This document shows, in pieces, positions 16,088 through 32,580 of a stretch of 64,000 nucleotides of DNA. Numbering within the stretch: position 1 is the first letter of the stretch; each line of letters opens with the position of its first letter. The stretch is from Candidatus Atribacteria bacterium (GTDB lineage: Bacteria; Atribacterota; Phoenicimicrobiia; Phoenicimicrobiales; Stramentimicrobiaceae), in NCBI GenBank assembly GCA_029553585.1, contig JAKPKS010000082.1, positions 1 through 64,000 on the forward strand. Reading direction: 5' to 3'. The translations under genes were made by a program, and so were the position numbers. Under the pieces are notes generated by a model. That model was not told the DNA's origin. It ran no database searches and saw only the letters and a program-made list of their open reading frames with translations.

Positions 16088-16112
16088 AAAATGAGAAAGT
16101 TCAGGTGATAAT

Positions 16113-16628: not shown

Positions 16629-16639
16629 GGTGAATACAT

Positions 16640-17863
16640 TTGAGTAAGACTACTTACAAGATACCCATTGGACCCATTCATCCTTCATTGGAAGAACCAA
16701 TGACTTTTAATTTCGAGATCGCCGGTGAAAGAATTCAATCGGTAGACCTATTGCCTGGTGATAATCATCGTGGTATCGAATTTATGGGAAGAAATAGAAA
16801 TATTGTGCAAATTATATATTTAGCTGAAAGAATATGCGGTATCTGCTCTGCTTCCCATCCTTTTGCTTTTTGCCGTGCTGTTGAAAATGCAGCCGGGATA
16901 GAGGTACCTCCTCGGGCAGAATATATCAGGGTTATTATTGCTGAATTGGAAAGAATCCATTCACATATCCTGTGGGCAGGGGTGGCTGCTCTTGAGTTAG
17001 GATTCTCTTCCTTATTATACCTTTCCTGGAAGGTGCGAGAAGAGGTCCTTGATCTCTTAGAATTACTTACCGGTAATCGTATTAACTATGGCATATTTAT
17101 GATTGGTGGAGTAAGGAGAGATATCACTGAAGAACATATTCCCCGTATCAGAAAAACGCTGGAATACTATAAAGATGCTTACCAAACCCTGGAAGATGTA
17201 TTTTTAAAAGACCCCAGTATTGCACTGAGAACTAAAGGGGTTGGTATTTTGACTTATGAACATGCCCTTAAGTTAGCCAGTGTTGGACCTACTGCCAGAG
17301 CTTCCGGGGTTAAAAAAGATGTCAGGCAGGATCAGCCCTATTCGGCTTATGCTGATCTGGATATTAAGGCGATTACCCCTGATGTATTTTCTGGTGAAGT
17401 TAATGGTGATGTTTATGACCGTATCATTGTACGGGTACTCGAGGTTTTTCAATCAGTCCAGATTATAGAACAATGTATCAATAACTTACCAGAAGGAGAT
17501 ATAGTATCAGAACCAAAACTTGCCAAATTGCTGGGCACTTTAAAAAAAGCAAAAGGTGAAGGTGTGGGCAGACACGAAGCCCCACGTGGTGAAGTTATTC
17601 ATTATGTAAAATTAAATGAATCAGAAAATCCGGAGGTGTGGAAGGCGAGAGCCCCAACCTATAATAATTTAATGCCCTGGATGCCAATGCTGGAAAATCA
17701 GGAGGTGGCGGATATCCCCATCGTCATTGCTTCTATTGACCCCTGCATTGGTTGTATGGATAGAGTTACACTGGTTGATTCCCAGACCAATAAAAAAGAG
17801 GTGTTAACCAGAGAAGAACTGATCAAGTTAAGTGTCGCTAAGACCAGGAGGATATTAAAATGA
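16640..17863 (+). CDS. mbhL: MbhL, [NiFe]-hydrogenase large subunit (group 4d-type)
   Basis: 407-residue catalytic subunit that evolves H2 using electrons probably supplied by ferredoxin. Both nickel-binding pairs are intact: RICGIC (Cys66, Cys69) and DPCIGCMDR (Cys369, Cys372). This argues for a true hydrogenase rather than the related NiFe-free Mbs sulfane reductase or complex I NuoD. A 32-residue tail follows the last motif, so any processing by the M52 protease at 19908 cannot be judged from sequence alone. The TTG start is preceded by TTGAGGTG, and the end overlaps mbhM by four bases. Confidence 0.94.
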   Translation: MSKTTYKIPIGPIHPSLEEPMTFNFEIAGERIQSVDLLPGDNHRGIEFMGRNRNIVQIIYLAERICGICSASHPFAFCRAVENAAGIEVPPRAEYIRVIIAELERIHSHILWAGVAALELGFSSLLYLSWKVREEVLDLLELLTGNRINYGIFMIGGVRRDITEEHIPRIRKTLEYYKDAYQTLEDVFLKDPSIALRTKGVGILTYEHALKLASVGPTARASGVKKDVRQDQPYSAYADLDIKAITPDVFSGEVNGDVYDRIIVRVLEVFQSVQIIEQCINNLPEGDIVSEPKLAKLLGTLKKAKGEGVGRHEAPRGEVIHYVKLNESENPEVWKARAPTYNNLMPWMPMLENQEVADIPIVIASIDPCIGCMDRVTLVDSQTNKKEVLTREELIKLSVAKTRRILK

Positions 17864-18870
17864 GTGGGAGCAGTATCTTAATTTTTATTCTTAAAATTTT
17901 TGGTACCTTGCTAATTGCTGTTCTGGGAATAATAATAGGCTTATTCTATAAAGGTGTTGACCGTAAATTAGCAGCTATGATGCAATCCCGGGTCGGGCCC
18001 CCAGTCAGGCAGCCTTTTTTGGATTTCTTTAAACTCATGATAAAGGAGAATATTGTTCCTGAAAACGCCGTTCCCTGGATCTTTAATGGGGCGCCAGTTC
18101 TGGCTTTAGTCTCTAACATTACTATTTTGCTTTATCTTCCCTTTGGTCCTATACCGGCACTTTTTGGGAATTCCGGTGATCTGATATTAATTGTTTATCT
18201 GTTGGCTATACCAGCTATCGCTCTAGTCACCGGAGGATTTTCCTCAGGTTCAACTTATGCCAGTATTGGAGCACAAAGAGAGATGGTATTGTTAATGAGT
18301 TATGAGTTGCCCCTGGTTACCTCCATAATCGTTTTAGGCTGGCGTTTGAACATTGCATTTCCGGGATTGAAGGTATTCTCTCTGGCTGCTCTGAGTGCTA
18401 ATCCTATCTGGGGATTAGTGGGACCATTAGGTTTCCTGGGAGTCCTGTTGTTACTTTTTACTCTGGTGCTGGTAACTCCGGCTGAGTTGTCAATTGTACC
18501 TTTCGACATACCAGAGGCAGAAACAGAGTTAGCCGGGGGTGTCTTAGTGGAGTATTCCGGCCGGAATTTAGCCTTATTCGAACTGGCAAATGCAGTTAAG
18601 ATGCTGGTGATGGGTTCTCTAACTATAGCACTTTTTTTCCCGTATAATATAGCACATTTACTTTCTTTAAGTGGTTTTTTAGCTTATATTATTGACCTCT
18701 TATTCTTTTTTGTAAAATTATTTATCGTGATATTTTTTGAAGCAACCTTTATTAGAGTTGCTGTAGCACGTTTAAAAATTAATCAGGCTTCGGCAGCTTA
18801 TTTATTCTTTTTATCGACAATTGGCCTTACCGGCTTGTTATTAATAGCAATCGACCGCTTAATGATTTAA
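17860..18870 (+). CDS. mbhM: MbhM, NuoH-like membrane subunit
   Basis: 336-residue polytopic NuoH-family protein with about eight hydrophobic segments. Family markers are MQSRVGPP near residue 45, AQREMVLLMSYELPL, and PFDIPEAETELAGG..EYSG in the loop facing the catalytic subunits. It anchors the hydrogenase half to the membrane. Unlike the tightly overlapping genes upstream, it is separated from mbhN by 460 bp of repeats. Confidence 0.93.
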   Translation: MSGSSILIFILKIFGTLLIAVLGIIIGLFYKGVDRKLAAMMQSRVGPPVRQPFLDFFKLMIKENIVPENAVPWIFNGAPVLALVSNITILLYLPFGPIPALFGNSGDLILIVYLLAIPAIALVTGGFSSGSTYASIGAQREMVLLMSYELPLVTSIIVLGWRLNIAFPGLKVFSLAALSANPIWGLVGPLGFLGVLLLLFTLVLVTPAELSIVPFDIPEAETELAGGVLVEYSGRNLALFELANAVKMLVMGSLTIALFFPYNIAHLLSLSGFLAYIIDLLFFFVKLFIVIFFEATFIRVAVARLKINQASAAYLFFLSTIGLTGLLLIAIDRLMI

Positions 18871-19330
18871 ATCAAATTTAGGTAATATCATGCTTTGTAG
18901 CTTGAGATAATTTTGTTAAAAACTAAAGTAATAAAATAAAAGCTCTTTAGAATAAATGCATGCGATTGCCACGGCACCCAGTATTTTAGCTTAAGGACTG
19001 TTTCGTAATGATCAGGAAAAGAAAATATTTTCTTACAAGTTTGTATTTAACAATATGCAGGTATATGCTATGCAGGTATACCTCTTTTTAACGCACGACG
19101 CATTACGAAATAGGGGTTTTAAGGGGATACTTCCCCTGACTATAACTTAGCTTTAACCAGGGTTTCTCTTTTTTGAATTATATTATTATTAGCTTAATGC
19201 ATTATTTGTTAATTATTATTATGTTTATACGGTATACTATATACGTTATACGTTATACTATTTGCTTGAAGGTTTTGAAGGGGATACTTCCCCTGTCGAA
19301 ATGTAATTTTAATGAAAGAGGTGATTCAGA
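18871..19330. repeat. repeat-filled gap between mbhM and mbhN
   Basis: No convincing gene is present. The gap holds a diverged REP-like copy (18961-19020), a short ACGNNNN array (19091-19111), a palindromic tract rich in TATACGTTATAC (19226-19260) and two copies of a hairpin, AGGGGATACTTCCCCT, at 19122-19137 and 19279-19294. The hairpin resembles the one in the mbh leader at 11071-11088. It looks like repeat insertion inside an operon. Confidence 0.65.
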
Positions 19331-19738
19331 ATGCCGACACCAATGGTGTTTGAGTTAATCAAGCAGCTTTTACATAAACCTGCCACTAATTGTTTTCCGG
19401 TAAAGTACCATCCAGGAAAAACAACAGTTACCGAGTTGATAAAGAAAGTTCAGGATGGTGAAGCCCAGATTAATTCACCTGTAGAGATACCGGAAAAATT
19501 CAGAGGGAAGATATCCTATGATAGAGAAAATTGCATTGGATGCCGTTTATGTATTCGGGTCTGCCCCTCCCGGGCGATTGAATTCCTTCCCGAAGATAAA
19601 AAGATAAAAATTAGAATTGACCGCTGCATCTTTTGTTCACAATGTAATGATATTTGCCCGGTCAATGTACTCAAAATGTCTGAGGATTTCCTATTGGCTA
19701 ATGAAGATCGTTTTGCCCAGGAATTGATTGTCCAGTAA
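19331..19738 (+). CDS. mbhN: MbhN, NuoI-like 2x[4Fe-4S] ferredoxin subunit
   Basis: 135-residue iron-sulfur subunit with two cluster motifs, CIGCRLCIRVCP (from about residue 69) and CIFCSQCNDICP (from about 99). It relays electrons, presumably from ferredoxin, to MbhJ. ATG 19331 is preceded by AGAGGTGAT. It completes the A-to-N set despite the gap before it, and a clear terminator follows. Confidence 0.92.
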   Translation: MPTPMVFELIKQLLHKPATNCFPVKYHPGKTTVTELIKKVQDGEAQINSPVEIPEKFRGKISYDRENCIGCRLCIRVCPSRAIEFLPEDKKIKIRIDRCIFCSQCNDICPVNVLKMSEDFLLANEDRFAQELIVQ

Positions 19739-19907: not shown

Positions 19908-20354
19908 TCAGATCAGGAGGGGAATAGTGTTTAGTTTATCTTCTTGTAGCAGGTTGATAAACAGATGACATGCCTTTAAGATCGGCTCACTTAATCCCTC
20001 CCCTATTTTAGTAGAAAGTGGTTGTATGCCAATTAGTATGATTTTCTGGCAATAGGGAGTTAGATATCCTATCAAATAGGATATAGACAGGTAATGAGTG
20101 GAAAGCTGTAGAGATACAATCTTTTCGGGTGGGATAACCCTGATACTGCCTGCTTCAAGTTCCATTTCCACAGTATCAACAATAACCAGGAGCTCGGGAT
20201 GAATTTTTTTTATAACTGAAGTAAAATTTTCAGGGGCAGATTTGCCGTCTATTACAGTCCAGTTGTTTGCCTTGAAATGCTGAGCAATGTAAGAGCCTGC
20301 TCCATCATCGGATCGTAAAGGATTACCTATTCCCATAAGCAAATTTTTTACCAT
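19908..20354 (-). CDS. hydrogenase maturation protease (M52 family)
   Basis: Peptidase of the HycI/HyaD family, which trims the C-terminus of [NiFe]-hydrogenase large subunits after metal insertion. About 148 residues begin MVKNLLMGIGNPLRSDDG, the family signature with a metal-binding acid; further acids are in VIVDTVEMELEAGS and a conserved STHYLS histidine follows. The start at 20354 is preferred over 20402 because family members begin a few residues before GIGNP. It converges on the mbh operon, so MbhL is the likely substrate. Confidence 0.85.
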   Translation of the reverse strand: MVKNLLMGIGNPLRSDDGAGSYIAQHFKANNWTVIDGKSAPENFTSVIKKIHPELLVIVDTVEMELEAGSIRVIPPEKIVSLQLSTHYLSISYLIGYLTPYCQKIILIGIQPLSTKIGEGLSEPILKACHLFINLLQEDKLNTIPLLI

Positions 20355-20476
20355 GGTACATACTCTCTTTAATATATTATAAAAAGTTGCAGTAAAGTTC
20401 AAAGGATTGTAATATTATAATATAATACAAAGTTATAGCAATCAATTAATTATCCTTTAAAAGGAGGGTAAAGCTC

Positions 20477-21109
20477 TTGAGAAGAACCAGACGTATTTAT
20501 AAAAGGCAAACCAGGAGTAATCTGGAAACTCTCATTATTTTGATTGGAGCGATTATAATCTTATCTGTTGCTTTTTATATGGCCCGGGAAAAAAGTTTTT
20601 TGCCACCAAAAGAATTTAAAGTAGAAGAGGAAGCAGAAGTTAAGGAAGAGGTAGCCAAAGTGAGTGAGGATGAGCAAAAAGCAATTGGTGAAATAATTAT
20701 CCAGAGTGAAAAGATTGCTGAATCTGTAACAATGGCACCACAAAAACCGGTTGAAGAAGGGAATTCTGCCCCGGTAATAGTGCAAACACCTTCCAGAGAA
20801 AGTGAGATACCAGCTAAGCCCGCGGTAACTGTTCCTGCCCAGCCAAAACCGGAAACACCAGCTCCACCTGCTGAAATCAAACCTGCAACAGGGGCAGCCT
20901 ATACTGTACAGGTAGGATTTTTTTCTATTGAGAGTAATGCCAGAAATTTGGCTAAAGAGATAGAGAATCGGGGATTTCAGACTTTTGTTATAAAGCAGAA
21001 TAATTACTTTAAAGTACAGGTAGGCCAATATCCTTTGCGGGAACAGGCAGAGAAGGCCTTGCAGCAATTAAAGAATATGGGTTATGAGACCTGGCTTACC
21101 CAAAAATAG
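20477..21109 (+). CDS. SPOR-domain membrane protein
   Basis: 210-residue protein: a basic N-terminus, one membrane helix (about 17-36), a Glu/Pro/Ala-rich linker and a C-terminal SPOR domain (YTVQVGFFSIESNARNLA ... YFKVQVGQYPLREQAEKAL). SPOR domains bind denuded glycan strands of peptidoglycan at division septa, so a role in cell-wall remodelling outside the inner membrane is likely. The specific partner is unknown. TTG 20477 has AAGGAGGGT upstream. rex follows about 60 bp later. Confidence 0.85.
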   Translation: MRRTRRIYKRQTRSNLETLIILIGAIIILSVAFYMAREKSFLPPKEFKVEEEAEVKEEVAKVSEDEQKAIGEIIIQSEKIAESVTMAPQKPVEEGNSAPVIVQTPSRESEIPAKPAVTVPAQPKPETPAPPAEIKPATGAAYTVQVGFFSIESNARNLAKEIENRGFQTFVIKQNNYFKVQVGQYPLREQAEKALQQLKNMGYETWLTQK

Positions 21110-21170
21110 GAAGAGTATTATACTAATACCTTCTCCAAGATGTTATATTTTTTAGAAAGGGTTATGACTT

Positions 21171-21809
21171 ATCAAGATTAGAAAAAAGCGTATTCCACAG
21201 GCGACTATTGATCGACTGCCAATTTACCACAGAACCTTAGAATCTTTGCTTGAAACAAGGGATAGAAATAAACTATCTACCATATCATCTTCTAAGCTGT
21301 CAGAGATAACCGGTATCAATTCCTATCAGATTAGAAAAGATTTTTCATATTTTGGTGAATTCGGGAAAAGAGGCATCGGTTATCCAGTTTCCGAATTAGC
21401 TAAAAAATTAAAAAAAATAATGAAATCAAATAAAAAATGGGATATTGCTCTGGCAGGTGCCGGTAATATAGGAACTGCTTTTCTTCGCTACAAAGGTTTT
21501 TCCAAAAGAGGCTTTACTATTAGATTAGTTTTTGATAATGATATTTTAAAAATTGGTACTGAAATAGATAATATTAAAATACTGCCCATTCAAGAAATGG
21601 AAGAACACTTAAAAAAACAGAAAATAAAAATTGGTATTATCGCAGTTCCTGCTCAATCGGCTCAGGAAGTGGCTGATAAGATGATTGCCGGTGGAGTGCG
21701 GTCTATATTAAATTTTGCTCCGGTCAGTATCAGGCATTCACAGGGGGTATCAATTAAACACATTGATATTGCGATTGAGCTGGAAAAGTTGGTTTATTAT
21801 TTGTTTTAG
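21171..21809 (+). CDS. rex: redox-sensing transcriptional repressor Rex
   Basis: Rex represses fermentation and hydrogenase genes and lets go when NADH/NAD+ rises. Visible are the winged helix (SKLSEITGINSYQIRKDFSYFGEFGKRG), the Rossmann motif ALAGAGNIG and the C-terminal dimer helix. The first standard start in frame is TTG 21246, but coding similarity continues upstream through RIPQATIDRLPIYHRTLE, the conserved Rex opening, to a stop at 21165. The best placed initiator is ATC 21171, nine bases after AAAGGG (21156-21161), giving 212 residues, the usual size. A one-base insertion after ATG 21164 would be the alternative. An 18-bp Rex operator lies 114 bp downstream of the gene. Confidence 0.9.
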   Translation: MKIRKKRIPQATIDRLPIYHRTLESLLETRDRNKLSTISSSKLSEITGINSYQIRKDFSYFGEFGKRGIGYPVSELAKKLKKIMKSNKKWDIALAGAGNIGTAFLRYKGFSKRGFTIRLVFDNDILKIGTEIDNIKILPIQEMEEHLKKQKIKIGIIAVPAQSAQEVADKMIAGGVRSILNFAPVSIRHSQGVSIKHIDIAIELEKLVYYLF

Positions 21810-21880
21810 TTTTCTATTTAAAACTATCATTTTTTAAGTTTGTCAGATTACTATAAAATACATAAAAATTAAGAATAAAT

Positions 21881-21909
21881 TTGACATATCTAATGAGCAA
21901 TGTTAAAAT
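21881..21909 (+). promoter_or_regulatory. promoter of the formate dehydrogenase operon
   Basis: Consensus -35 TTGACA (21881-21886), 17-bp spacer and -10 TAAAAT (21904-21909) with an extended TG. Transcription should begin near 21916, seven bases before the Rex operator. Confidence 0.8.
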
Positions 21910-21922
21910 ATTTTGGTATGTT

Positions 21923-21940
21923 TTGTGATATTTTTCACAA
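21923..21940. promoter_or_regulatory. Rex operator
   Basis: TTGTGATATTTTTCACAA is an inverted repeat TTGTGA-N6-TCACAA, the classic Rex binding site. It lies just after the predicted start site, so bound Rex would block initiation or early elongation. It is close to the rex gene itself. Confidence 0.85.
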
Positions 21941-22028
21941 ATTTATTTTGAGGGAAAAGATTTCATTTACTAGTATTTAGTACCATATTTTTTTACTGTT
22001 AAAACTTTATTTTAAAAGAGAGTTTATT

Positions 22029-22376
22029 ATGAAAATCAAAGATATTGTCAATATATTGGATGCTGAAGTATTGAGCGGGGAAGATTTGCTGGATCGGGAA
22101 ATTGAAGAGTTTGCCGCCAGTGATCTGTTAAGTGATGTCCTTGCTTTATCCAAAGATAATTTCTTGCTACTAACCGGATTGACCACACAACAGGTAGTCA
22201 GAACTGCTGAGATTGCCGGAGGAGTGGGGGTAATTTTTGTGAGAGGTAAGGCTCCTGAGCAGGAAGCAATCGGATTGGCTCATTCGCATCATATTCCACT
22301 TTTAATGACCTCGAAAACAATGTTTGATGCCTGTAAAGCAATTGTTGAAGAAATTATTAAACAGAAGGAAAAATGA
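22029..22376 (+). CDS. DRTGG-domain protein
   Basis: First gene of the Rex-controlled operon. The 115-residue soluble protein resembles the DRTGG domain, with ASDLLSDVLA at about residue 36 and LLLTGLTTQQVVRTAEIAG in the middle. DRTGG domains occur with CBS domains and in HprK-like and phosphotransacetylase-like proteins, and are thought to sense a ligand; the ligand is unknown. In Thermotoga and clostridia similar proteins precede HydABC-type genes. It overlaps the next gene by four bases. Confidence 0.75.
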   Translation: MKIKDIVNILDAEVLSGEDLLDREIEEFAASDLLSDVLALSKDNFLLLTGLTTQQVVRTAEIAGGVGVIFVRGKAPEQEAIGLAHSHHIPLLMTSKTMFDACKAIVEEIIKQKEK

Positions 22377-23302
22377 CTGTTTTACATTCCAGAGAAAAAT
22401 TAACCTTAGCCAATGAGTTAATTTATGAATTAAAAGTAAAAGATGCCATGACCAGAGAGGTAATTTTTTTCGATAAAAATGCTACCTTTCGTGAAGTTCA
22501 AATGGCTTTAAAAGAAAATAGAATTTCGGGTGTACCAATTTTAGATGAACAGAAAAATATTATTGGTATTGTTAGTATTGATAATGTAATTACTGCTCTG
22601 GATAAAGGCTATGTGAATGAAAAAGTAGAAAACTACATGGCTAAAGAGGTTATAACTATCCCTCAAAATTATTCTCTGGTTTCAGCTATTAAAAAATTTG
22701 AAAAATATCAGTTTGGACGATTACCGGTAACTGATAAAGCCCATTCCTGCAAAATGGTAGGTATTCTGACTATGGGTGATATCTTAAATCGATTGCTGGT
22801 TAGTATACAGACCATTGCCGAGAAAGTTGAAAAAGATGAAGATAAAAATTCCCAGTTGTCAGATGAATTAGTCAGAAAAGTACAACAAAGACCATTACGT
22901 TTTGAAGTAAAAAAAGCTGATTTTGATAATGCGGGCAGGGTAGCCAGTATTATCAGAAATTATTTACAAAAATTAAATATTGATAAAAAATTACTGAGAA
23001 GAGTAGCAATTGTATGCTATGAAGCAGAGATGAATATCAGCATACATTCTTTAGGGGGGTATATATCGATAGAGGTTGAGCAAAACGGTATTACCATAAC
23101 TGCTGTTGATTATGGGCCAGGGATCCCGGATATTGAAGAGGCAATGAAACCCGGGTTCACAACTGCTTCTGAACAGATAAGGGCTTTAGGGTTTGGTGCC
23201 GGTATGGGCTTACCCAATATAAAAAAATGTGCTGATCGCTTAGAATTGGAGTCTTCTATGGAAACAGGTACCATTTTAAAAGCAGTAGTCTATTTAAGTT
23301 AG
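22373..23302 (+). CDS. CBS-pair protein with anti-sigma-type ATPase domain
   Basis: 309 residues with two parts. Residues ~24-145 form two CBS motifs (DAMTREVIFFDKNATFREV and NYMAKEVITIPQNYSLVSA), which usually bind adenine nucleotides. Residues ~180-305 form a GHKL/SpoIIAB-like ATPase with an N-box (EAEMNISIHS), G1 (DYGPGIPD) and G2 (GFGAGMGLPNI). It could be a Ser/Thr kinase or anti-sigma-like switch reading the energy charge. No histidine phospho-acceptor domain is seen. The target is unknown; the neighbours suggest the formate dehydrogenase complex or its transcription. Confidence 0.8.
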   Translation: MTVLHSREKLTLANELIYELKVKDAMTREVIFFDKNATFREVQMALKENRISGVPILDEQKNIIGIVSIDNVITALDKGYVNEKVENYMAKEVITIPQNYSLVSAIKKFEKYQFGRLPVTDKAHSCKMVGILTMGDILNRLLVSIQTIAEKVEKDEDKNSQLSDELVRKVQQRPLRFEVKKADFDNAGRVASIIRNYLQKLNIDKKLLRRVAIVCYEAEMNISIHSLGGYISIEVEQNGITITAVDYGPGIPDIEEAMKPGFTTASEQIRALGFGAGMGLPNIKKCADRLELESSMETGTILKAVVYLS

Positions 23303-23311
23303 GAGGTTAAA

Positions 23312-23656
23312 ATGAAGTTAAGTCAGATTATAGAAGAATGTAAACTGAAGAAAATAGTTTTCTGTTCTGATGATGAAATTAAGAATGGTTATTGTGGTGA
23401 TTTAATGTCTGATGTTATCGCGCACGCTAAGACCGATAGCGTCTGGGTTACGGTCCAGGCTCATAAAAATAGCATTGCGGTAGCCTTAATTAAAGAGATA
23501 CGGGCAATTATTTTCACTAATAATGTTGCCATAAGCCAGGAATTAATTGATAAAGCTAAAGAAGAAGATATTAATCTGTTCAGCACTGAAAATAATTCTT
23601 TCCAATTATGCGGATTATTATATAAATTATTGGAGGGCAGTAACCATCAGGATTGA
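23312..23656 (+). CDS. small DRTGG-like protein
   Basis: A 114-residue soluble protein resembling the first gene of the operon in length and in the motif GDLMSDVIAHAK, but lacking its TG-rich stretch. It probably shares the DRTGG-like fold. An AGGAGG site precedes the ATG. The 3' end contains the ribosome-binding site of the next gene. Function unknown. Confidence 0.65.
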   Translation: MKLSQIIEECKLKKIVFCSDDEIKNGYCGDLMSDVIAHAKTDSVWVTVQAHKNSIAVALIKEIRAIIFTNNVAISQELIDKAKEEDINLFSTENNSFQLCGLLYKLLEGSNHQD

Positions 23657-24389
23657 TTTGCATATCCATTCTGCTCTTTCGGCTTGCGGCGAAGACATTA
23701 TGTCCCCGCAAAGAATATTAAAAAGGGCAGAACAAAGTGGATTGAACTTAATTGCTATTACTGACCATAATGCAATTGCCCATTCCATTTTGATTAATGA
23801 ACTAAAAAAAGCTAACTCAGTGAATGTTATTTTAGGAGTAGAGTTGACAACCAGGGAAGAAGTGCATTTATTGGGTTATTTCCCGGATGAATTGAGCCTG
23901 AAAGAGATGGGGGAAAAAATAGATGAATATCTGCCGAAATTAGAAAATAGACCATCTTTCTTTGGTTACCAGTTAATCTATAATGAGCAGGAAGAAGTAA
24001 ACGAGATTGATTACCGGCTAAGGCAGAATGCATTACAGGCAAGTATGGAGGAATTGGTTAATTTCATACACTATCTGGGTGGTATAGCAGTGCCGGCCCA
24101 TATTCACAGAGATTATTGCAGTATAAAAAGCCAGATAGGGTTTTTAGATCCAAATAGTGATTTTGATGCAGTAGAAATATCACGATTTGAGTGGATAAAA
24201 AAGCAATATAAAATAGGTGATTTACTGGAAGGATTTCCGGTAGTAAGTGGCTCAGATAGCCATTTTTTGGAAGATATTGGCACTTTTTACTGGGAAGTGG
24301 ATGATGAGAGAAAAATAATGGATTTTGATTCATTGAAAAATTTTTTAAAGGAAATCAGGATTGAAAGACATAGCAGACCATCTTTTTGA
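23646..24389 (+). CDS. PHP-domain phosphoesterase
   Basis: Metal-dependent phosphoesterase-like protein of the PHP superfamily: RIDLHIHSALSACGED at the N-terminus (the HxH metal ligands), ITDHNAI, later VPAHIHRD and SGSDSH. About 247 residues. No standard start fits: ATC 23646 is eight bases after GGAGGG (23632-23637) and yields the expected M-RIDLHIHS opening. TTG 23658 lies just after the upstream stop and would remove the first strand. PHP genes of this kind recur in HydABC-type operons; the substrate is unknown. Confidence 0.8.
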   Translation: MRIDLHIHSALSACGEDIMSPQRILKRAEQSGLNLIAITDHNAIAHSILINELKKANSVNVILGVELTTREEVHLLGYFPDELSLKEMGEKIDEYLPKLENRPSFFGYQLIYNEQEEVNEIDYRLRQNALQASMEELVNFIHYLGGIAVPAHIHRDYCSIKSQIGFLDPNSDFDAVEISRFEWIKKQYKIGDLLEGFPVVSGSDSHFLEDIGTFYWEVDDERKIMDFDSLKNFLKEIRIERHSRPSF

Positions 24390-24897
24390 TATCTTTGAAA
24401 ATTCAGTCAATGCTGGGGCAAGTGAAGTTATAGTAAGAATTGCTAATACTGAAAATCATTTTTTTTGCAGCATCACCGACAATGGAACAGGAATTAGCGG
24501 ACCTGAAGTACTGGATCCCTTTGTAACTTCCCGGAAAACCAGAAGGGTGGGATTGGGACTTCCTTTATTAAAAAAGGCAGCAGAGGATACCGGGGGATAC
24601 CTAAAGATAAAAAAAAGAGAAGAGATGAGGGGTACTACATTACAATTCGAAATGGACACCTCTCATATTGATGCTAAACCCTTTGGTGATTTAGCACAGA
24701 CATTTGCAGATATCTTTTTTGCCTGGCCGGAAATGGTTTTTAAATTATATATATCAACAAGAGGCAGCGAAGAGCTGGTTTTAGATTTTCAAAGATTACG
24801 GCAGGAAGCAGAAGAGGGGTTAGTCGATCTGCTAAAACTGAGAAAGCATATTTATGAGGTTGCCAGGGAAGAACTAAAAAAAATAGATATCGGATAA
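24361..24897 (+). CDS. GHKL ATPase-domain protein
   Basis: 178-residue protein with a Bergerat ATP-binding fold: N-box LFDIFENSVNAGAS, G1 DNGTGISG and G2 RKTRRVGLGLPLLKKAAED. It lacks any sensor or histidine-acceptor domain. It starts with TTG 24361 inside the end of the PHP gene, with AAGGA upstream. As the second such ATPase in the cassette it may work with the CBS-ATPase protein. Function unproven. Confidence 0.75.
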   Translation: MKDIADHLFDIFENSVNAGASEVIVRIANTENHFFCSITDNGTGISGPEVLDPFVTSRKTRRVGLGLPLLKKAAEDTGGYLKIKKREEMRGTTLQFEMDTSHIDAKPFGDLAQTFADIFFAWPEMVFKLYISTRGSEELVLDFQRLRQEAEEGLVDLLKLRKHIYEVAREELKKIDIG

Positions 24898-24954
24898 CAT
24901 TTTTAAGGGTATAAAAAATATTTTAATATAATTTACTGTTCAAGAGGAGGAACT

Positions 24955-25323
24955 ATGAAAAATCTGGAAGAGCTAAGGATGATGAGAGAGAAGGTAAAGA
25001 GGGACTTAGCACTTAGAACAGGACAGCATCGTATTAAGATTGTTGTAGGAATGGGTAGTTGTGGAATAGCAGCTGGTGCCAGGGATACTATGAATGAATT
25101 GCTGGATTTGATTGAAAAAAACCATAGGACTGATATTATGGTCACTGCCTCAGGCTGTTTTGGTTTTTGTGCCCAGGAACCTATGATACATGTGTATGTA
25201 GATGACCAGAGGCCGGTAACCTATCGTAATGTTGATATTGATGCAGCAAGATTAATTTTTAATGAGCATATTTTAAACAATAGAGTAGTAGAACAATATC
25301 TTTTTTCAAAGGGGAAGAAATAA
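24955..25323 (+). CDS. [2Fe-2S] thioredoxin-like ferredoxin
   Basis: 122-residue protein of the NuoE/NuoF-N-terminal type. Conserved cysteines lie in GMGSCGIAAGA and TASGCFGFCAQEP, enough for part or all of a [2Fe-2S] site. It resembles the N-terminal ~95 residues of the NuoF-type protein downstream. Such a small protein regularly accompanies HydABC-type complexes. It overlaps the next gene by one base. Confidence 0.8.
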   Translation: MKNLEELRMMREKVKRDLALRTGQHRIKIVVGMGSCGIAAGARDTMNELLDLIEKNHRTDIMVTASGCFGFCAQEPMIHVYVDDQRPVTYRNVDIDAARLIFNEHILNNRVVEQYLFSKGKK

Positions 25324-25820
25324 TGAGTGAAACAACTGTCTTAAAAAATGATGAAATAGCTTTAGAAGAAAAATACCAGGAATTGAGAGATTATATCCAT
25401 GAAAATAAGGAGAAAAAGGGTTACTTAATTCCTGTTCTCTATAAAGCACAATCTCTATTTGGTTACCTGCCCGCAGAGGTTCAAAACTTTGTAGCTGAAG
25501 AAATGAATGTTTCTCCCAGTGAAGTTTTTGGAGTAATCACTTTTTATTCCTATTTTAAAACACAGCCAGTGGGGCGCCATACCATTACCATCTGTATGGG
25601 AACCGCCTGCTATGTCAGAGGTGCCAAAAAGATTTTAGAGGCATTGGAAGATAAATTGGGCATAAAGATAGGAGAAACAACAGAAGATTTGAGGTTTACT
25701 TTGGGAGAACAACGTTGTTTTGGGTCATGCGGTATGGCTCCGGTTATTATGATTGACCAGGATGTACATGGTCGTTTGACTGCCAGTAAATTAGATGCAA
25801 TATTAGAAAAATATAAATAG
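25323..25820 (+). CDS. NuoE-like subunit (HydC/gamma type)
   Basis: 165-residue 24-kDa-type subunit with a helical N-terminus (GYLIPVLYKAQSLFGYLP, FGVITFYSYF) and a thioredoxin-fold [2Fe-2S] domain with CMGTACYVRG and CFGSCGMAP supplying four cysteines. It pairs with the FMN subunit NuoF/HydB to pass electrons from NAD(P)H. It would serve the formate dehydrogenase encoded downstream. Confidence 0.9.
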   Translation: MSETTVLKNDEIALEEKYQELRDYIHENKEKKGYLIPVLYKAQSLFGYLPAEVQNFVAEEMNVSPSEVFGVITFYSYFKTQPVGRHTITICMGTACYVRGAKKILEALEDKLGIKIGETTEDLRFTLGEQRCFGSCGMAPVIMIDQDVHGRLTASKLDAILEKYK

Positions 25821-25841
25821 TTTCAGAAGGAGTAGTTAATT

Positions 25842-28800
25842 ATGAATAATATAAGAATCCAGCTTCTTCTATGCCATGGTACTTCCTGTATGTCTAATGG
25901 TGCCGTCAGAGTAAGGGAAGCGTTGGAAGAGGCATTAAAAGAGGCTAATCTGGAAAAAGAAGTTGAAATTATTACTACCGGTTGTATGGGGATATGTGAA
26001 TTGGGTCCCATTATGGTAGTTTATCCTGATGGAGTTTTTTACCAGCAATTAAAACCGGAAGATGCTCGGGAAATTGTGCAGGAGCATGTTTTAAAAGGTA
26101 GAGTAGTAGAACGCCTTTTCTATAAAAAGCCTAAAACAGAAGAATTAGTAGCAATGATGGAAGACATCGACTTCTTCAAATTACAGAAAAGAATTGCCCG
26201 CAGAAACTGTGGAATCATAGATGTTGATACCATTGATGATTATATTGGTGCCGATGGCTTTATGGCTTTAGGCAAGGTCTTAACTGAGATGACTCCTCAA
26301 CAGGTAATTGATGAAATTAAAAAATCAGGATTAAGAGGCAGGGGTGGTGCAGGTTTTCCCACTGGATTGAAATGGGAATTTGCTGCTAAAGCTCCTGGTA
26401 CACAAAAATACATTTTATGTAATGCCGATGAGGGCGACCCTGGTGCCTTTATGGATCGCAGTATGCTGGAAGGCGACTCCTATAGTGTTTTGGAGGCTAT
26501 GATGATTGGTGGTTATGCTATAGGAGCCAATCAGGGATATATTTATGTACGAGCTGAGTACCCCTTAGCTATCGAAAGGTTGAATATTGCCATCAGAGAG
26601 ATGAAGAAACATAATCTATTGGGGGAAAATATCTTTGGAACCGGCTTTAATTTTGATGTAGAAATCAGAATGGGGGCAGGTGCCTTTGTCTGTGGTGAGG
26701 AGACTGCCTTGATGCACTCCATTGAAGGGAAAAGAGGAGAGCCCAGACCAAGACCACCCTTCCCTGCTAATCAGGGGTTATTCCAGGTACCTACTGTGCT
26801 AAACAATGTGGAAACATTAGCCAATATTCCCTATATAATTCTTTATGGAGCTGAAAATTTTGCCTCAGTTGGAACCGAAAAGAGCAAAGGAACCAAGGTA
26901 TTTGCCTTAGCTGGCAATATCAATAATACCGGTTTAATCGAAGTCCCTATAGGTATAACCTTAGGTGAAATTGTCTATAATATCGGGGGAGGAATTCCAG
27001 GAAATAAGAAATTTAAGGCGGTTCAGATTGGTGGACCATCCGGAGGCTGTATACCAGCACAGCATCTCAATGCTGTAGTTGATTATGAGTCACTAAAGGC
27101 ACTTGGTGCTATTATGGGTTCAGGCGGGTTGATCGTAATGGATGAAGATACCTGTATGGTTGATATTGCCCGTTATTTCATGGAGTTTATTCAGGATGAA
27201 TCCTGTGGCAAATGTACCCCTTGCCGAGAAGGGACCAGGGTAATGCTTGAGATATTGACCAGGATTTGTGAGGGCAAGGGCAAAATGGAAGATCTGGATA
27301 CCTTAGAAGAGTTATCTCATAGAATTGGAGATACAGCCCTTTGCGGGTTAGGACAAACAGCTCCTAATCCGGTTTTATCTACCTTAAAATACTTTAGACA
27401 TGAGTATATTGAACATATCAGAGACAAGAAATGCAGAGCAGGAGTTTGTGCCGAATTAGTATATGCTCCCTGTACCAATTCCTGCCCGGCTTCAGTAAAT
27501 GCCCCGGCTTATATAGCATACACTAAAGAAGGGCAATATGAGAGAGCAATGCAGGCTCATTTAAGAACAAATCCTTTCCCGGCGGTATGTGGTAGAGTTT
27601 GCCCTGCTTTCTGTGAATCCCGCTGCCGGAGAAAAGATATTGATAGCGCCATTAACATCCGGGCTGTCAAGAGATTTATGGCTGATCAGAATATTAATTA
27701 TTTAGATTGCTATCCTGATAAACATGTTAAAAATGGTAAAAGAGTTGCCATCATAGGTGGAGGTCCATCCGGACTATCCAATGCCTATTTTCTAACTATG
27801 TTAGGGTATGAAACAACAGTATTTGAAGCACAACCCAAGGCAGGGGGAATGCTGACTTATGCCATTCCTTCCTATCGTTTACCTAAAAATATTGTGGAGA
27901 AAGAGATTCAAGCCCTGGTAGATTATGGAGTTAAGATACAAACCAATGCCAGAATTGGAAAGGATATAACCTTAGATCAGCTCAGAGACGAAGGTTATCA
28001 GGCTTTCTATATCTCTGCTGGAGCATGGGATTCTATTATGCCGGAGATGGATAATCTGGATGACCCCAGAATTTACAGTGGATTAGAATTCCTGTCTAAA
28101 TTTAACAGAGAAGAACCACTGGATATTGGTAAGGAGGTAATAGTGGTAGGTGGCGGTAATTCCGCTATAGATGCAGCCAGAACTGCCAAAAGGCTTGGCG
28201 CCAATGTTACTATTGTCTACCGTAGAACCAGAGAAGAAATGCCCGCTGATGAAGCTGAAATTAATGAAGCGGAGAGAGAAGGTATTAAAATATCTCTCCT
28301 GCAAAATATAAAATCAGTAAAACCTCATAAAGATTTCCTGGAAGTTGAATTAATCAATATGAGATTGGGAGATTATGATACCTCAGGACGACGCAGACCT
28401 GTGGAAATCAAAGACTCCAATTTCACTAAAAATATTGATTGCCTAATCCTGTCAATCGGTCAAAAACCAGCTATTACAGATTTATTAGGTAATGAGGAGA
28501 TTCAGCTTAATCGTGACCAGACCATTCCAACCGAAAAGGGAAAAACTAGAATAAAAGACGTTTTTGCCGGTGGTGATGTGGCATTAGGCCCTGCTACCGT
28601 AGTTGAAGCAATAGGGGAGGCGCAGGATGCAGCGGAGGCTATTGATTTTTATCTAACTGGTAAGAAAAGAGCTTATCCCTGGAGAATAAAGGATCCTATC
28701 TATGTTGATTTTGATCCAGAAGCAGACCCGGTAGACTATCAACGTTCACATGAATTCCTGCTCCCGGTTCAGGAAAGAGGAATTTACAATGAAGTGGAAA

Positions 28801-28871
28801 AGACCTGGGATAAAGAGACCACCTGTCGTGAAGGCAGCAGGTGCCTGCGCTGTGAATACCGAGAGGACTAA
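25842..28871 (+). CDS. NuoF-GltD fusion, NAD(P)H-flavin-iron-sulfur subunit
   Basis: 1009 residues, two enzymes in one chain. Residues 1-95: [2Fe-2S] thioredoxin-like domain (Cys10, 16, 48, 52). About 130-520: NuoF/HydB core with FMN/NADH loop GLRGRGGAGFPTG (164-176), GGPSGGC, and CGKCTPC (455-461) for a [4Fe-4S] cluster. About 530-620: cysteine-rich GltD-type iron-sulfur region. About 633-940: GltD/NfnB-like flavoprotein with IIGGGPSG (637-644) and VVGGGNSAIDAARTAKRLGA for a second nucleotide. A final CLRC tail follows. Similar fusions are known in Stn-type transhydrogenases of acetogens. The second module suggests NADPH as an additional partner (inference). Confidence 0.9.
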   Translation: MNNIRIQLLLCHGTSCMSNGAVRVREALEEALKEANLEKEVEIITTGCMGICELGPIMVVYPDGVFYQQLKPEDAREIVQEHVLKGRVVERLFYKKPKTEELVAMMEDIDFFKLQKRIARRNCGIIDVDTIDDYIGADGFMALGKVLTEMTPQQVIDEIKKSGLRGRGGAGFPTGLKWEFAAKAPGTQKYILCNADEGDPGAFMDRSMLEGDSYSVLEAMMIGGYAIGANQGYIYVRAEYPLAIERLNIAIREMKKHNLLGENIFGTGFNFDVEIRMGAGAFVCGEETALMHSIEGKRGEPRPRPPFPANQGLFQVPTVLNNVETLANIPYIILYGAENFASVGTEKSKGTKVFALAGNINNTGLIEVPIGITLGEIVYNIGGGIPGNKKFKAVQIGGPSGGCIPAQHLNAVVDYESLKALGAIMGSGGLIVMDEDTCMVDIARYFMEFIQDESCGKCTPCREGTRVMLEILTRICEGKGKMEDLDTLEELSHRIGDTALCGLGQTAPNPVLSTLKYFRHEYIEHIRDKKCRAGVCAELVYAPCTNSCPASVNAPAYIAYTKEGQYERAMQAHLRTNPFPAVCGRVCPAFCESRCRRKDIDSAINIRAVKRFMADQNINYLDCYPDKHVKNGKRVAIIGGGPSGLSNAYFLTMLGYETTVFEAQPKAGGMLTYAIPSYRLPKNIVEKEIQALVDYGVKIQTNARIGKDITLDQLRDEGYQAFYISAGAWDSIMPEMDNLDDPRIYSGLEFLSKFNREEPLDIGKEVIVVGGGNSAIDAARTAKRLGANVTIVYRRTREEMPADEAEINEAEREGIKISLLQNIKSVKPHKDFLEVELINMRLGDYDTSGRRRPVEIKDSNFTKNIDCLILSIGQKPAITDLLGNEEIQLNRDQTIPTEKGKTRIKDVFAGGDVALGPATVVEAIGEAQDAAEAIDFYLTGKKRAYPWRIKDPIYVDFDPEADPVDYQRSHEFLLPVQERGIYNEVEKTWDKETTCREGSRCLRCEYRED

Positions 28872-28899
28872 TATCGAGAGAAAGGATTGAAAAGATAAA

Positions 28900-31671
28900 A
28901 TGAAAGATACAGCTATTAAAGAAGAAATAAAAACCATACCCCTGGTACAGGTTACTATAGATGGCCAAAAAATAATGGTAGAGCCCGGTACAACCATCCT
29001 TGATGCAGCAGAGAAAGCCGGTATAAAAATTCCTACTCTTTGTGCTATGGCAGAAATCAATCATTATCCGGGAGCTTGTCGCATGTGTGTGGTAGAGGTG
29101 GAAGGGATGCCAACCTTAGTTGCCTCCTGTGTTTACCCGGTTAGAGAAGGAATGATAATACATACCCATAACGAAAGGGTAATCAAGGCCCGTAAAGTGG
29201 TACTGGATTTGCTTTTAACTACTCACCCCTTAGATTGCATGACCTGTGAGAAAAACGGAGAATGTGATTTGCAAAACTTAGCCTATGAGTTGGGAATTAA
29301 AGAAACCAGTTACGGGAGGGTGGAGAGAAGCCTTCCGCTTGATGAAAGTAACCCCTTTATCTTGAGGGATTTGAATAAATGTATTCTCTGCCGGAGATGT
29401 GTGGAGATATGTAATGAAATTCAACAATCTCGGGCAATTGGTTTTGGATTCAGAGGAAAAAAGACGGAGGTAATTGCCGGGTTAGGCCATAAATTGGGAC
29501 ATGAAACAAAAATAGCAGCCAGTTCGGCAGAAAACCCTGATTATTCCAATTGTGTTTCTTGTGGTCAGTGTGTGGCAGTATGCCCGGTAGGGGCCTTAAC
29601 TGACAAGGCGGCACAAGGCAAGGGAAGAGTCTGGGAATTTGAAAAAGTACATACTACCTGTAATTATTGCGGTGTCGGCTGTGGGTTTGATTTAAATATT
29701 AAAGACGGTAAGGTAGTTAAGGTTACTTCTAATCCCAATAGTATAGTCAATGGTATAAACCTCTGTGTAAAAGGGCGTTTTGGTAATGATTATATACACA
29801 GAGAAGACCGCCTGACTACACCTTTAATCAGAAAGAACGGGAAATTAGAACCTGCTTCCTGGGAGGAGGCGCTTCAGTTAATCAGTGAAAAATTTAGTGA
29901 GATTAAAAAAGAAAGTGGTGGTGATAGCTTAGCTGTTCTATCTTCAGCCAAATGTACCAATGAGGAGAACTTTCTGCTCATGAAATTTGGCCGGGCGGTT
30001 TTAGGTACCAGTAATGTAGACCACTGTGCCCGCCTCTGCCATTCTGCCACTGTTGCTGGTTTAGCACAATCTTTCGGCAGTGGAGCCATGACCAATTCTA
30101 TTAGCGAGTTAGCCAATGCCTCAGTTATCTACTTAACCGGTTCCAATACCACTGAAAACCATCCGATTATTGGCTTAGAGATAAAGAAAGCGGTAACTAA
30201 AAATGGAGCAAAATTGATTGTAGCTGACCCCAGAGAGATAGAATTGGTAAAATATGCTACCCTCTGGTTAAGGCATAGGCCCGGTACGGATGTTGCCCTG
30301 TTTAATGGCCTGATGAATGTTATCATTACTGAGGGTTTGGAAGATAAGAAATTTATCGAAGAAAGAACTGAAGATTATGAAAAAATGAAGGAAGTTGTGC
30401 TGAAGTACACACCTGAGATTGTAGAGAAGATTACCGGAGTTCCTGCCGAAGATATCAGAAAAGCAGCCAGAATATATGCCGCCGGTCCCAATACCGCTCT
30501 AATTTACTCTATGGGAATTACTCAGCATACCAGCGGGGTGGACAATGTCCTGTCTACTGCTAACATAGCTATGTTAACCGGAAATGTAGGGAAGGAAAGC
30601 TCAGGGGTTAACCCCTTGAGGGGTCAGAGCAATGTACAGGGAGCCTGTGACATGGGTGCCTTGCCAAACGTATTCTCTGGCTATCAAGCCGTTACAGATC
30701 CGGTTGCACAGGAAAAATTTTCTAAAGCCTGGGGAGTTGAGCTTCCCAATAAGGTGGGACTAACCGTAGTGGAAATACTCAATGCAGCCTATGATGGTAA
30801 AATCAGAGGGCTATTTATTATGGCTGAAAACCCGGCTATGTCAGACCCCGATTTAAATCATGCCCGCGAAGCCTTAAAGAGAGTAGAATTCCTGGTAGTT
30901 TCCGATATATTTATGACTGAGACGGCTGAGGTTGCTGATGTGGTACTACCGGGAGTAAGTTTTGCAGAGAAGGACGGAACAATTACCAATACCGAAAGAA
31001 GGGTACAGAGATTCCATAAGGCAATCGAGCCTGTTGGGGATTCAAAGCCAGATTGGCAGATAATCTGTGAAATAGCCCAGAGCATGGGATATAATATGAG
31101 CTATGAAAGCCCGGCTGAAATTATGGAAGAGATTGCCCGGCTGACTCCCAGCTATGGCGGGATGCTCTACTATAGGCTGGAAAAAGGTGGCTTGCAATGG
31201 CCCTGTCCAGATGTAAACCACCCTGGTACCAAATTCCTGCATAAGGATAAATTTACCAGAGGGAAAGGAAAATTCTTCGGAATCGAATTCAGAGAAGCTG
31301 CAGAACTTCCCGATGAAGAATATCCCTTCATCTTTACTACTGGAAGGGTATTGTACCATTTCCATACCGGTACAGTTACCCGTAAATCCAGAGGTTTAAA
31401 CGAAGTGTATAAAGAAGCATTGGTAGAGATTAATCCTGATGATGCCCGGGAATTAGGTATAGAAAATGATGAAATAATTGAAATTGCTTCCCGCAGAGGA
31501 ACAATTCAGGCAAAGACCAAAGTTACCGAAAAATCGGACCGGGGTGTGATTTTCATGAGCTTCCATTTCCATGAAGCTGCTGCCAACCTTTTGACCAACG
31601 CTGCCCTTGACCCGGTTTCCAAGATACCAGAATATAAAGTATGTGCTGTTAAAGTTAAGAAGATATCCTAA
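28900..31671 (+). CDS. fdhA: NuoG-type formate dehydrogenase catalytic subunit
   Basis: 923 residues. N-terminal [2Fe-2S] domain (Cys48, 60, 63, 77), then HPLDCMTCEKNGEC and two 4Fe-4S motifs (CILCRRCVEIC from 161; CVSCGQCVAVC from 218). The Mo/W-bis-PGD oxidoreductase begins with CNYCGVGC (254-261). The active-site segment HCARLCHSATVAG carries cysteine at position 380, where many formate dehydrogenases have selenocysteine, followed by the conserved histidine. There is no [FeFe]-hydrogenase H-cluster motif. The adjacent formate channel, fdhD and mobA support formate as substrate. It likely forms a complex with the NuoE and NuoF proteins. Confidence 0.9.
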   Translation: MKDTAIKEEIKTIPLVQVTIDGQKIMVEPGTTILDAAEKAGIKIPTLCAMAEINHYPGACRMCVVEVEGMPTLVASCVYPVREGMIIHTHNERVIKARKVVLDLLLTTHPLDCMTCEKNGECDLQNLAYELGIKETSYGRVERSLPLDESNPFILRDLNKCILCRRCVEICNEIQQSRAIGFGFRGKKTEVIAGLGHKLGHETKIAASSAENPDYSNCVSCGQCVAVCPVGALTDKAAQGKGRVWEFEKVHTTCNYCGVGCGFDLNIKDGKVVKVTSNPNSIVNGINLCVKGRFGNDYIHREDRLTTPLIRKNGKLEPASWEEALQLISEKFSEIKKESGGDSLAVLSSAKCTNEENFLLMKFGRAVLGTSNVDHCARLCHSATVAGLAQSFGSGAMTNSISELANASVIYLTGSNTTENHPIIGLEIKKAVTKNGAKLIVADPREIELVKYATLWLRHRPGTDVALFNGLMNVIITEGLEDKKFIEERTEDYEKMKEVVLKYTPEIVEKITGVPAEDIRKAARIYAAGPNTALIYSMGITQHTSGVDNVLSTANIAMLTGNVGKESSGVNPLRGQSNVQGACDMGALPNVFSGYQAVTDPVAQEKFSKAWGVELPNKVGLTVVEILNAAYDGKIRGLFIMAENPAMSDPDLNHAREALKRVEFLVVSDIFMTETAEVADVVLPGVSFAEKDGTITNTERRVQRFHKAIEPVGDSKPDWQIICEIAQSMGYNMSYESPAEIMEEIARLTPSYGGMLYYRLEKGGLQWPCPDVNHPGTKFLHKDKFTRGKGKFFGIEFREAAELPDEEYPFIFTTGRVLYHFHTGTVTRKSRGLNEVYKEALVEINPDDARELGIENDEIIEIASRRGTIQAKTKVTEKSDRGVIFMSFHFHEAAANLLTNAALDPVSKIPEYKVCAVKVKKIS

Positions 31672-31704: not shown

Positions 31705-32580
31705 TTGAGTCCGGAAGAAAAAGAAAAAATTCAATTGGTACAGGATGTGGCAACACCCTGTAATGCGCCGGCAGCTATTGCCAATGCTTTTTGCTCTATC
31801 GGAAAGGCCAAAGCCGGTTTATCGTTAGTAAAAATGATTATTCTAGGAATTTTAGCTGGCGCTTATATCAGCTTTGGGGCACAGCTGGCTACTATGGTTA
31901 CCTATGATTCAGTTAAATTCGTGGGTGATGGAATTACCAAAATACTATTTGGTAGCGTTTTTTCGGTAGGTCTTATGATGGTAGTTATTGCTGGAGCAGA
32001 ATTATTTACTGGTAATAATTTAATAGTAGTAGGTACCTTAAATAAGGATGTGACGGTAGAAAGATTATTATACAGTTGGTTCTGGGTCTATGTGGCAAAC
32101 TTTATTGGCTCTCTCCTGGTAGTTTGGCTTATGTATAGTGCCCAGCTCTGGAAGACTGGCAATTTTGCGGTAGGGGCAAAGGCGTTAGCCATAGCTAACG
32201 GCAAAGTCGGTTTAACCTGGGGTGCGGCAATTGCCAGAGGAATTCTCTGTAACTGGCTGGTATGCTTAGCAGTGTGGATGGCTGTAGCAGCTAAAGATAT
32301 AATTGGAAAAATCTTTGCAATCTATTTCCCCATTATGGCTTTTGTGGCAAGTGGTTTCGAACACAGTATTGCCAATATGTATTTTGTACCAATGGGTATC
32401 TTGTTAAAAAATAATGCCTCAGTAGTTTCAGCAGCTGGTTTAGCCGATCAGCTGGGCAAGCTGAATTGGGGTAGTTTTATATTTAATAATCTACTCCCGG
32501 TCACTATTGGCAATATAATAGGTGGAGCCTTCTTTGTAGCTACGCTATACTGGTATGTTTATTTAAGAGAGAATAAGTAA
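31705..32580 (+). CDS. focA: formate/nitrite-family channel
   Basis: 291-residue FNT-family membrane protein with six hydrophobic segments. Family motifs are ILAGAYISFGAQLA in helix 1, AGAELFTGNN after helix 2, GILCNWLVCLAVWMA and GFEHSIANMYFVP. The TTG start follows GGGAGG. It is the last gene of the Rex-controlled operon, directly after the formate dehydrogenase, so formate import or export is far likelier than nitrite. A terminator follows. Confidence 0.9.
   Translation: MSPEEKEKIQLVQDVATPCNAPAAIANAFCSIGKAKAGLSLVKMIILGILAGAYISFGAQLATMVTYDSVKFVGDGITKILFGSVFSVGLMMVVIAGAELFTGNNLIVVGTLNKDVTVERLLYSWFWVYVANFIGSLLVVWLMYSAQLWKTGNFAVGAKALAIANGKVGLTWGAAIARGILCNWLVCLAVWMAVAAKDIIGKIFAIYFPIMAFVASGFEHSIANMYFVPMGILLKNNASVVSAAGLADQLGKLNWGSFIFNNLLPVTIGNIIGGAFFVATLYWYVYLRENK

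Follow-up and report, generated by a model that had tools for sequence, protein, structure and literature searches.

Bifurcating enzymes decide how anaerobes split electrons among NADH, ferredoxin, H2, and formate. How this choice is controlled, and how the group D "sensory" [FeFe]-hydrogenases relay their signal, are open questions (PMC8163306; PMC11376134). Beside TamHydS, a group D (M2e) hydrogenase of T. mathranii, an ATPase gene and an "AraC" gene were reported, and the signalling route was left open (Land et al. 2020, PMC8163306). HydE of A. woodii was described as similar to the ATP-binding domains of histidine kinases, one that "may be involved in assembly or signalling", and HydD as a small protein with no predicted cofactor (PMC3315566, Poehlein et al. 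2012). HATPase domains are also carried by group C1 hydrogenases of Hydrogenedentota (PMC11406978). Here, we analyzed a cassette of five genes, A-B-C-D-E, located on the + strand at 22029-24897 of a 64,000-nucleotide stretch (hereafter, the window) of a Candidatus Atribacteria genome (assembly GCA_029553585.1, contig JAKPKS010000082.1, positions 1 to 64,000). The genes lie ahead of those for an NADH/ferredoxin/formate complex and encode two small DRTGG proteins (A and C), a SpoIIAB-like ATPase fused to a CBS pair (B), a PHP-family phosphoesterase (D), and a free GHKL ATPase (E). All five had been named in an earlier reading of the window (the original prediction). They were recovered on a single strand, and both their order and the span of the set agree exactly with those it gave.

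The locus was compared with the closest described systems. In contrast to the TamHydS operon, the window has no hydrogenase sensor, its ATPase carries a fused CBS pair, and the enzyme is a formate dehydrogenase. HydE and HydD of A. woodii, compared by description, match E and the small gene that follows it (F) in kind and position only, and the five-gene operon was described without A-D (PMC3315566). The ATPase half of B is similar to SpoIIAB/RsbW (1e-07 to 6e-14) and keeps the E...N box, but B has a fused CBS pair or a HydS partner. In the regulatory region of family II pyrophosphatase (PDB 3l2b, 3l31), CBS and DRTGG domains stand side by side, as they do in the cassette, where they are, however, separate proteins around an ATPase. 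The enzymes next to the cassette have BfuB/BfuC-type cores like those of the Bfu bifurcating enzymes (Schut et al. 2022, PMC9304861), and their third partners include Fdh and FeFe; searches of the main text of that paper gave no mention of kinase, CBS, PHP, or ATPase.

Literature searches yielded nothing useful on DRTGG, PHP, and hydrogenase together, no paper joining electron bifurcation with CBS and a histidine-kinase-like ATPase, and, in the open-licence literature, no account of the whole cassette or of its CBS version. D. vulgaris DVU3031, a protein with AAA and DRTGG domains, is unrelated. The cassette is real and widespread and has been noticed before only in fragments; its function is inferred.

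Genomes and loci compared

The Atribacterota genome holding the window comprises 2.06 Mb in 304 contigs, and its relatives are Candidatus Atribacteria. A profile of B was run against the genomes of 84,980 species and gave more than 500 relatives, of which the best 80 were retained with up to 10 kb of flanking sequence per side. Loci with at least 6 kb on each side were termed well-flanked (n = 42). Co-occurrence was analyzed in 150 clostridial genomes. Enzyme partners were tallied with single-sequence probes, which undercount Hyd, Fdh, and Hdr, and from this tally numbers are given for BfuB, F, and E only. Loci (L) and genomes (G) are cited by our own numbers.

Conservation of the cassette

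At the level of gene order, these loci show A-B-C-D-E to be a conserved unit beside the NuoE/F/NuoF core. Among the well-flanked loci, A was present in 38, C in 41, D in 36, and E in 38, and all five members in 34. The order A-B-C-D-E was kept in 31 of these 34, all on one strand. BfuB (NuoF type) was located within 10 kb in 37/42 loci, and F, or BfuB with a matching N-terminus, was found in 27/27 cassette genomes tested. Association with many unrelated operons had been named in the original prediction as the pattern that would speak against a link to the enzyme, and the profile did not give that pattern. By inspection, an HdrA-like gene adjoins the cassette in one exception (L072) and HdrB/C-like genes do so in another (L111). 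In a Treponema (L093), B-C-D stand alone, and E belongs to a second locus of that genome (L172), which also contains NuoE, F, NuoF, and HydA. The named carriers belong to about 20 phyla, including Chloroflexota, Cloacimonadota, Planctomycetota, Spirochaetota, Verrucomicrobiota, Lentisphaerota, Acidobacteriota, and Bacillota, a spread that rests mostly on metagenome-assembled genomes, so that single placements may be wrong.

In the clostridial sample, B was found in 54 genomes, E in 53, and both in 50 (Fisher ~3e-31), and F was detected at stand-alone level in 57, including every genome with E (53/53, Fisher 3e-36); these p-values overstate independence because the genomes come from a single phylum and share ancestry. 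Where both were present, B was located within 3.3 kb of E in 48/50 genomes.

The third partner of the enzyme varies: it was an [FeFe]-hydrogenase (HydA), a formate dehydrogenase (FdhA), a 1,090-aa HdrA-like protein, or occasionally Rnf. In L165 and L166, the cassette and F stand directly before RnfC-D-G-E-A-B (named from gene order, sizes, and sequence). The constant is therefore the NADH/ferredoxin step and, judged by its neighbours, the cassette follows the NAD/ferredoxin core, not hydrogenases as such. A hydrogenase-specific cassette had been considered and was dropped once the HdrA-like, Fdh, and Rnf partners turned up; matches of 1,090 aa to "fdhA", wrongly taken for long hydrogenases, proved to be HdrA-like proteins with a NuoG-like N-terminus. 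Of the original prediction, the tie of a sensory unit to an enzyme class was borne out; the enzyme in the window is a formate dehydrogenase with a NuoG-like N-terminus and not HydABC.

In several loci (L105, L102, L092, and others), a gene for an HdrA-like protein of ~1,090 aa with a NuoG-like N-terminus is located beside a NuoE that bears an HdrA-like N-terminal part. These genes possibly encode an Hdr-type bifurcating complex with NuoEF.

Exchangeable inputs of B

In most clostridial genomes with the cassette, B is the ATPase half alone (B', ~150 aa) and is followed by a protein of 440 aa, here called X, in the order A-B'-X-C-D-E. Two 4Fe-4S motifs at the N-terminus of X are followed by an [FeFe]-hydrogenase domain and, at the C-terminus, by an FeS domain (Fer4, Fe_hyd_lg_C, and FeS matches); the domain scan found no PAS domain in the protein. 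The Cx2Cx4Cx16C motif was present in 11/11 sequences, with the proton-transfer Cys lost, and the P1 motif was SSACP/SSSCP-like in 10/11. These hallmarks are those given for group D/M2e "putative sensory" hydrogenases (PMC8163306), and the X of the relatives is thus assigned to that group.

X was near or fused to B in 27/30 ATPase-only loci versus 1/92 CBS-type loci, the latter being L166, which carries both. In two loci (L180:12297-13880 on the - strand and L181:2639-4270), a single reading frame encodes the ATPase and X as a fusion. Because X tracks the ATPase-only form of B and can be fused to it, the CBS pair and the hydrogen sensor look like interchangeable inputs. Judged by gene content, the input part of B is exchangeable: some lineages have a CBS pair in this role, others a group D sensory [FeFe]-hydrogenase. 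The CBS pair as one of two alternative inputs was absent from the original prediction.

The same division is seen within Atribacterota, where X was absent from 10/10 CBS-type genomes and present in 10/10 genomes from other families. In the X-type loci of this phylum (9/9 read), A-B'-X-C-D are separate and without E, one member being undetected in two of them; in these genomes, E is part of the hydrogenase operon, where NuoE and F stand on either side of it. In three of the CBS-type Atribacterota genomes (G010, G013, and G021), no [FeFe]-hydrogenase domain of any kind was found. The window itself holds no group D hydrogenase module, B being of the CBS type with no X beside the ATPase. The only Fe_hyd_lg_C match in its genome is on another contig (G000:C54), at the contig end; it is strong and scores like HydA.

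In the tree of the ATPase part, which has long branches and a weak root, at least three well-supported changes of type were seen, and CBS-type Atribacterota were not grouped with the X-type members of the same phylum. Both observations make exchange and horizontal transfer likely.

In the loci read (L152-L170), the genes on either side of X are mostly B' and C, and the size of C is below that of an AraC regulator. For this reason, the "AraC" label at TamHydS may be a misannotation of a small DRTGG protein.

Features of the cassette proteins

The features of the locus are listed in Table 1.

Table 1. Coordinates of the cassette, its upstream region, and the adjoining enzyme genes in the window
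Feature	Description	Position	Strand	Evidence
A	Small DRTGG/PucR-like protein, 115 aa	22029..22376	+	Pfam DRTGG 3e-06
B	CBS-CBS-HATPase, a sensor pair fused to a SpoIIAB-like ATPase/kinase, 309 aa	22373..23302	+	CBS 2.1e-24, HATPase_c_2 1e-07, spIIAB 6e-14
C	Second DRTGG protein, 114 aa	23312..23656	+	Pfam DRTGG 1e-05
D	PHP-family metallo-phosphoesterase	23646..24389, start uncertain (near-cognate codon ~23646-23652)	+	PHP 2.1e-08, PHP_C 2.9e-06
E	Free GHKL ATPase with conserved C-terminal extension (HIDxxPxGD)	24361..24897	+	HATPase_c 1.2e-11
Rex	Redox-sensing repressor (NADH/NAD+)	21246..21809	+	NCBIfam Rex models up to 232.9 bits, above cut-off
Promoter (predicted)	Cassette-enzyme operon, TTGACA-17-TAAAAT, extended -10	21881..21909	+	Consensus match alone
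Rex operator (predicted)	TTGTGATATTTTTCACAA, just 3' of -10	21923..21940	+	Exact match
F	Small 2Fe-2S-ferredoxin-like protein, position of HydD/HndB	24955..25323	+	Weak PF01257 and fdxn_Clost matches
BfuC	NuoE/HydC-type subunit	25323..25820	+	PF01257 6e-53
BfuB	NuoF/HydB-type subunit, GltD-like C-terminal half	25842..28871	+	Complex1_51K 1.2e-45, NADH_4Fe-4S 6.6e-36, Fer4_20 2e-19
FdhA	Formate dehydrogenase alpha, NuoG-like N-terminus fused	28900..31671	+	Fdh-alpha TIGR01591 2e-271; NuoG-like N-terminal domains
Transporter	Probable formate/nitrite-family transporter, final gene of run	31705..32580	+	Name from sequence; homologue next to FdhA in relatives

Both A and C passed the Pfam DRTGG cut-off by a narrow margin. 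For A, the score was 27.4 bits (cut-off 25.2), and a PucR-like match of 30.1 bits was below its own cut-off; for C, the DRTGG and HPrK_N matches were each barely above. Invariant residues of A among 16 sequences were D32, L33, S35, D36, T49, and A84. C is predicted with high confidence to adopt the DRTGG fold: its AlphaFold model has a mean predicted local distance difference test score (pLDDT) of 95, the best PDB match is 2ioj (AF1212; template modelling [TM] score 0.80), and the CBS-DRTGG regulatory part of the C. perfringens pyrophosphatase (PDB 3l2b, 3l31) follows with a TM score of 0.70. E was modelled with a pLDDT of 88 and is similar in fold to the catalytic domains of histidine kinases and to MutL-type ATPases. 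A sequence search of the PDB gave no solved structure close to A, B, C, or E.

In B, E217 and N221 were invariant across 80 sequences, and D246 and the glycine boxes were conserved. The invariant residues of E were D10, N14, D40, G42, G64, G66, H102, D104, P107, and G109. As the original prediction had it, both ATPases lack the acceptor part of histidine kinases, since no HisKA/DHp phosphoacceptor domain was found in either by the domain scan. The scan detected no response regulator among the five products, so the cassette does not qualify as a two-component system.

The metal ligands of D (HxH, DHN, E, H, H, DxH) were complete and invariant among 20 sequences. A TTG start at 23547 (inside C), taken from the list of open reading frames, was discarded as too early, the PHP fold beginning near 23646. 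No ATG, GTG, or TTG was found close ahead of this fold (window 23640-23660). In five relatives (L040, L041, L042, L044, and L045), the only starts left to D by an in-frame stop are of the CTG/ATT/ATC type; they follow a good ribosome-binding site and are close to the stop codon of C, which overlaps; in L037, an ATG is present at this position.

Transcription and the adjoining enzyme

A and B overlap by 4 bases, B and C are 9 bases apart, and C/D and D/E overlap. Such spacing makes the translational coupling suggested in the original prediction plausible. The unit begins further upstream than proposed there, with the Rex gene, the promoter, and the Rex box. The promoter candidate matched at 11/12 positions and ranked first among 52 matches in 20300-33400. 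The exact Rex box occurs once in the window and once in the 2.06 Mb genome, and it was also found ahead of A in every CBS-type Atribacterota locus covering that stretch; in most Atribacterota relatives, the Rex gene adjoins A. The locus thus has both marks of a Rex regulon, a Rex gene and an exact operator at the promoter. Because Rex precedes A, with a promoter match and an exact Rex box between them, the cassette and the enzyme look like one Rex-controlled operon, the transcription of which is probably set separately by Rex.

By the domain scan, the neighbouring complex has a Bfu-type core, consisting of a BfuC with the 2Fe-2S fold and a BfuB with NuoF domains. BfuB (1,009 aa) has Fer4_20 and a GltD-like part in its C-terminal half in place of an evident Fer4 pair. 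On its domain composition, the enzyme would be one that trades electrons among NADH, ferredoxin, and formate.

Proposed function

With moderate confidence, A-E are read as a dedicated signalling module for NADH/ferredoxin-linked (Bfu-type) enzymes, in which B is gated by a sensor, D resets the phosphate signal, E acts on the enzyme side, and Rex works separately. In the window organism, an adenine nucleotide (energy state) would be read by the CBS pair, probably together with the DRTGG proteins, and the hydrogenase version would read H2 or redox state. The reading would set the ATPase/kinase activity of B, and a phosphate or conformational signal would pass from B via A/C to E or to the enzyme, the phosphate acceptor being one of the set (A, C) or of the enzyme (E, F, NuoE/F). 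The PHP enzyme D would take the phosphate off and so reset the switch. E would be the enzyme-side end, adjusting the activity or the partner choice of the complex; it is placed there because it stays in the enzyme operon where A-D lie elsewhere. The enzyme would thus be adjusted after translation, and Rex, via the operator at 21923-21940, would set its amount. The ATP-site residues of B and the metal-site residues of D are conserved; phosphorylation, its target, and any effect on the enzyme we only infer. An analogy is proposed with the mitochondrial pyruvate and branched-chain ketoacid dehydrogenase kinases, in which a GHKL ATPase acts on a metabolic complex together with a phosphatase under metabolite control; E has weak profile and fold matches to BCKDK and no close homology.

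More tentatively, the cassettes may constitute a widespread and so far undescribed class of signal transduction, in which a GHKL ATPase with interchangeable inputs (energy charge read by a CBS pair, H2 by a group D hydrogenase), two DRTGG proteins, a PHP phosphatase, and an ATPase on the enzyme side exert post-translational control over bifurcating and Rnf-type enzymes in ~20 phyla, and may be the missing signalling route of the group D hydrogenases. If true, the module would answer, concretely and testably, both how the bifurcating choice is controlled and how the sensory hydrogenases relay their signal, and it would offer a new handle to steer hydrogen, formate, or acetate production.

Several observations weigh against a signalling module of this kind. 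The Ser that is invariant in A and C may have a structural role and not be a phosphoacceptor. GHKL kinases such as PDK or SpoIIAB have a catalytic Glu at the position where E has Asp. Because of this replacement at the catalytic-base position, E may not be a kinase. D is no closer to protein phosphatases than to nucleotide phosphoesterases. HydE of A. woodii did not form part of the active enzyme (PMC3315566), and direct binding to the complex is therefore unsupported by that case. In two loci (L108 and L120), B has no enzyme nearby.

Alternative explanations

Some of these points fit a nucleotide messenger instead, in which D would hydrolyze an AMP-, pAp-, or Ap4A-like nucleotide bound by the CBS and DRTGG proteins, and B and E would be conformational ATPases relaying the state without phosphotransfer. 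Among the NCBIfam families that D matches best are 3',5'-nucleoside bisphosphate phosphatase and RNase Rnm, the folds closest to C include the pyrophosphatase regulatory part, and the Asp of E agrees with such a role. However, the SpoIIAB-type E...N box is complete in B and the glycine boxes are retained, which suggests real catalysis, and the cassette contains no messenger synthase. This account is regarded as rather unlikely.

A role in assembly or quality control, with the two GHKL ATPases as small chaperones that build the Fe-S/flavin complex and the other genes in support, would explain why many genomes have E inside the enzyme operon, with NuoE and F as its neighbours, and why none of the 53 clostridial genomes with E lacks F. 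"Assembly or signalling" was also what the A. woodii genome paper proposed for HydE (PMC3315566). Against this, the CBS pair and the sensory hydrogenase as alternative inputs fit sensing instead, F was present without B in seven clostridial genomes, and the cofactors of the partner enzymes differ widely. We consider assembly improbable.

A SpoIIAB/RsbW-type partner switch, acting on a sigma or other transcription factor of the enzyme operon, is suggested by the resemblance of B to anti-sigma F factor (spIIAB 6e-14; PDB 1th8 and others) and by its invariant catalytic E and N of the N-box. Such a switch is unlikely because no STAS domain (PF01740) was found in 7/7 Atribacterota cassette genomes, the B. 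subtilis and T. maritima controls being positive. Neither a DNA-binding domain nor a sigma gene was found in A-E by the domain scan, and the Rex gene and Rex box already at the promoter suffice. The transcription-factor target named in the original prediction is weakened by the same results, and the probability left to a partner switch is small. The mere co-location of cassette and enzymes through shared horizontal transfer or chance, with which the between-phylum exchange suggested by the B tree and the separation of CBS-type and X-type Atribacterota would agree, is hardly credible given the adjacency across about 20 phyla despite differing gene arrangements and enzymes and the genome-level co-occurrence that persists where the loci are separate.

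Genes upstream of the locus

Just upstream of the locus, the window contains Mrp-antiporter-type and NuoBCDHI-like genes (11224-19738), as in membrane-bound [NiFe]-hydrogenases, and a gene for a HycI-type maturation protease (19908-20402). A gene encoding ~170-210 aa was seen ahead of Rex or A in the window (20477-21109) as well as in Clostridia and further Atribacterota families (L165:7523-8041, L187-L195). Its product looks membrane-anchored in the window and in L165, and the C-terminus of the window copy is RlpA/FtsN-like (SPOR-type). The position of this gene ahead of Rex or A is possibly a case of conserved synteny.

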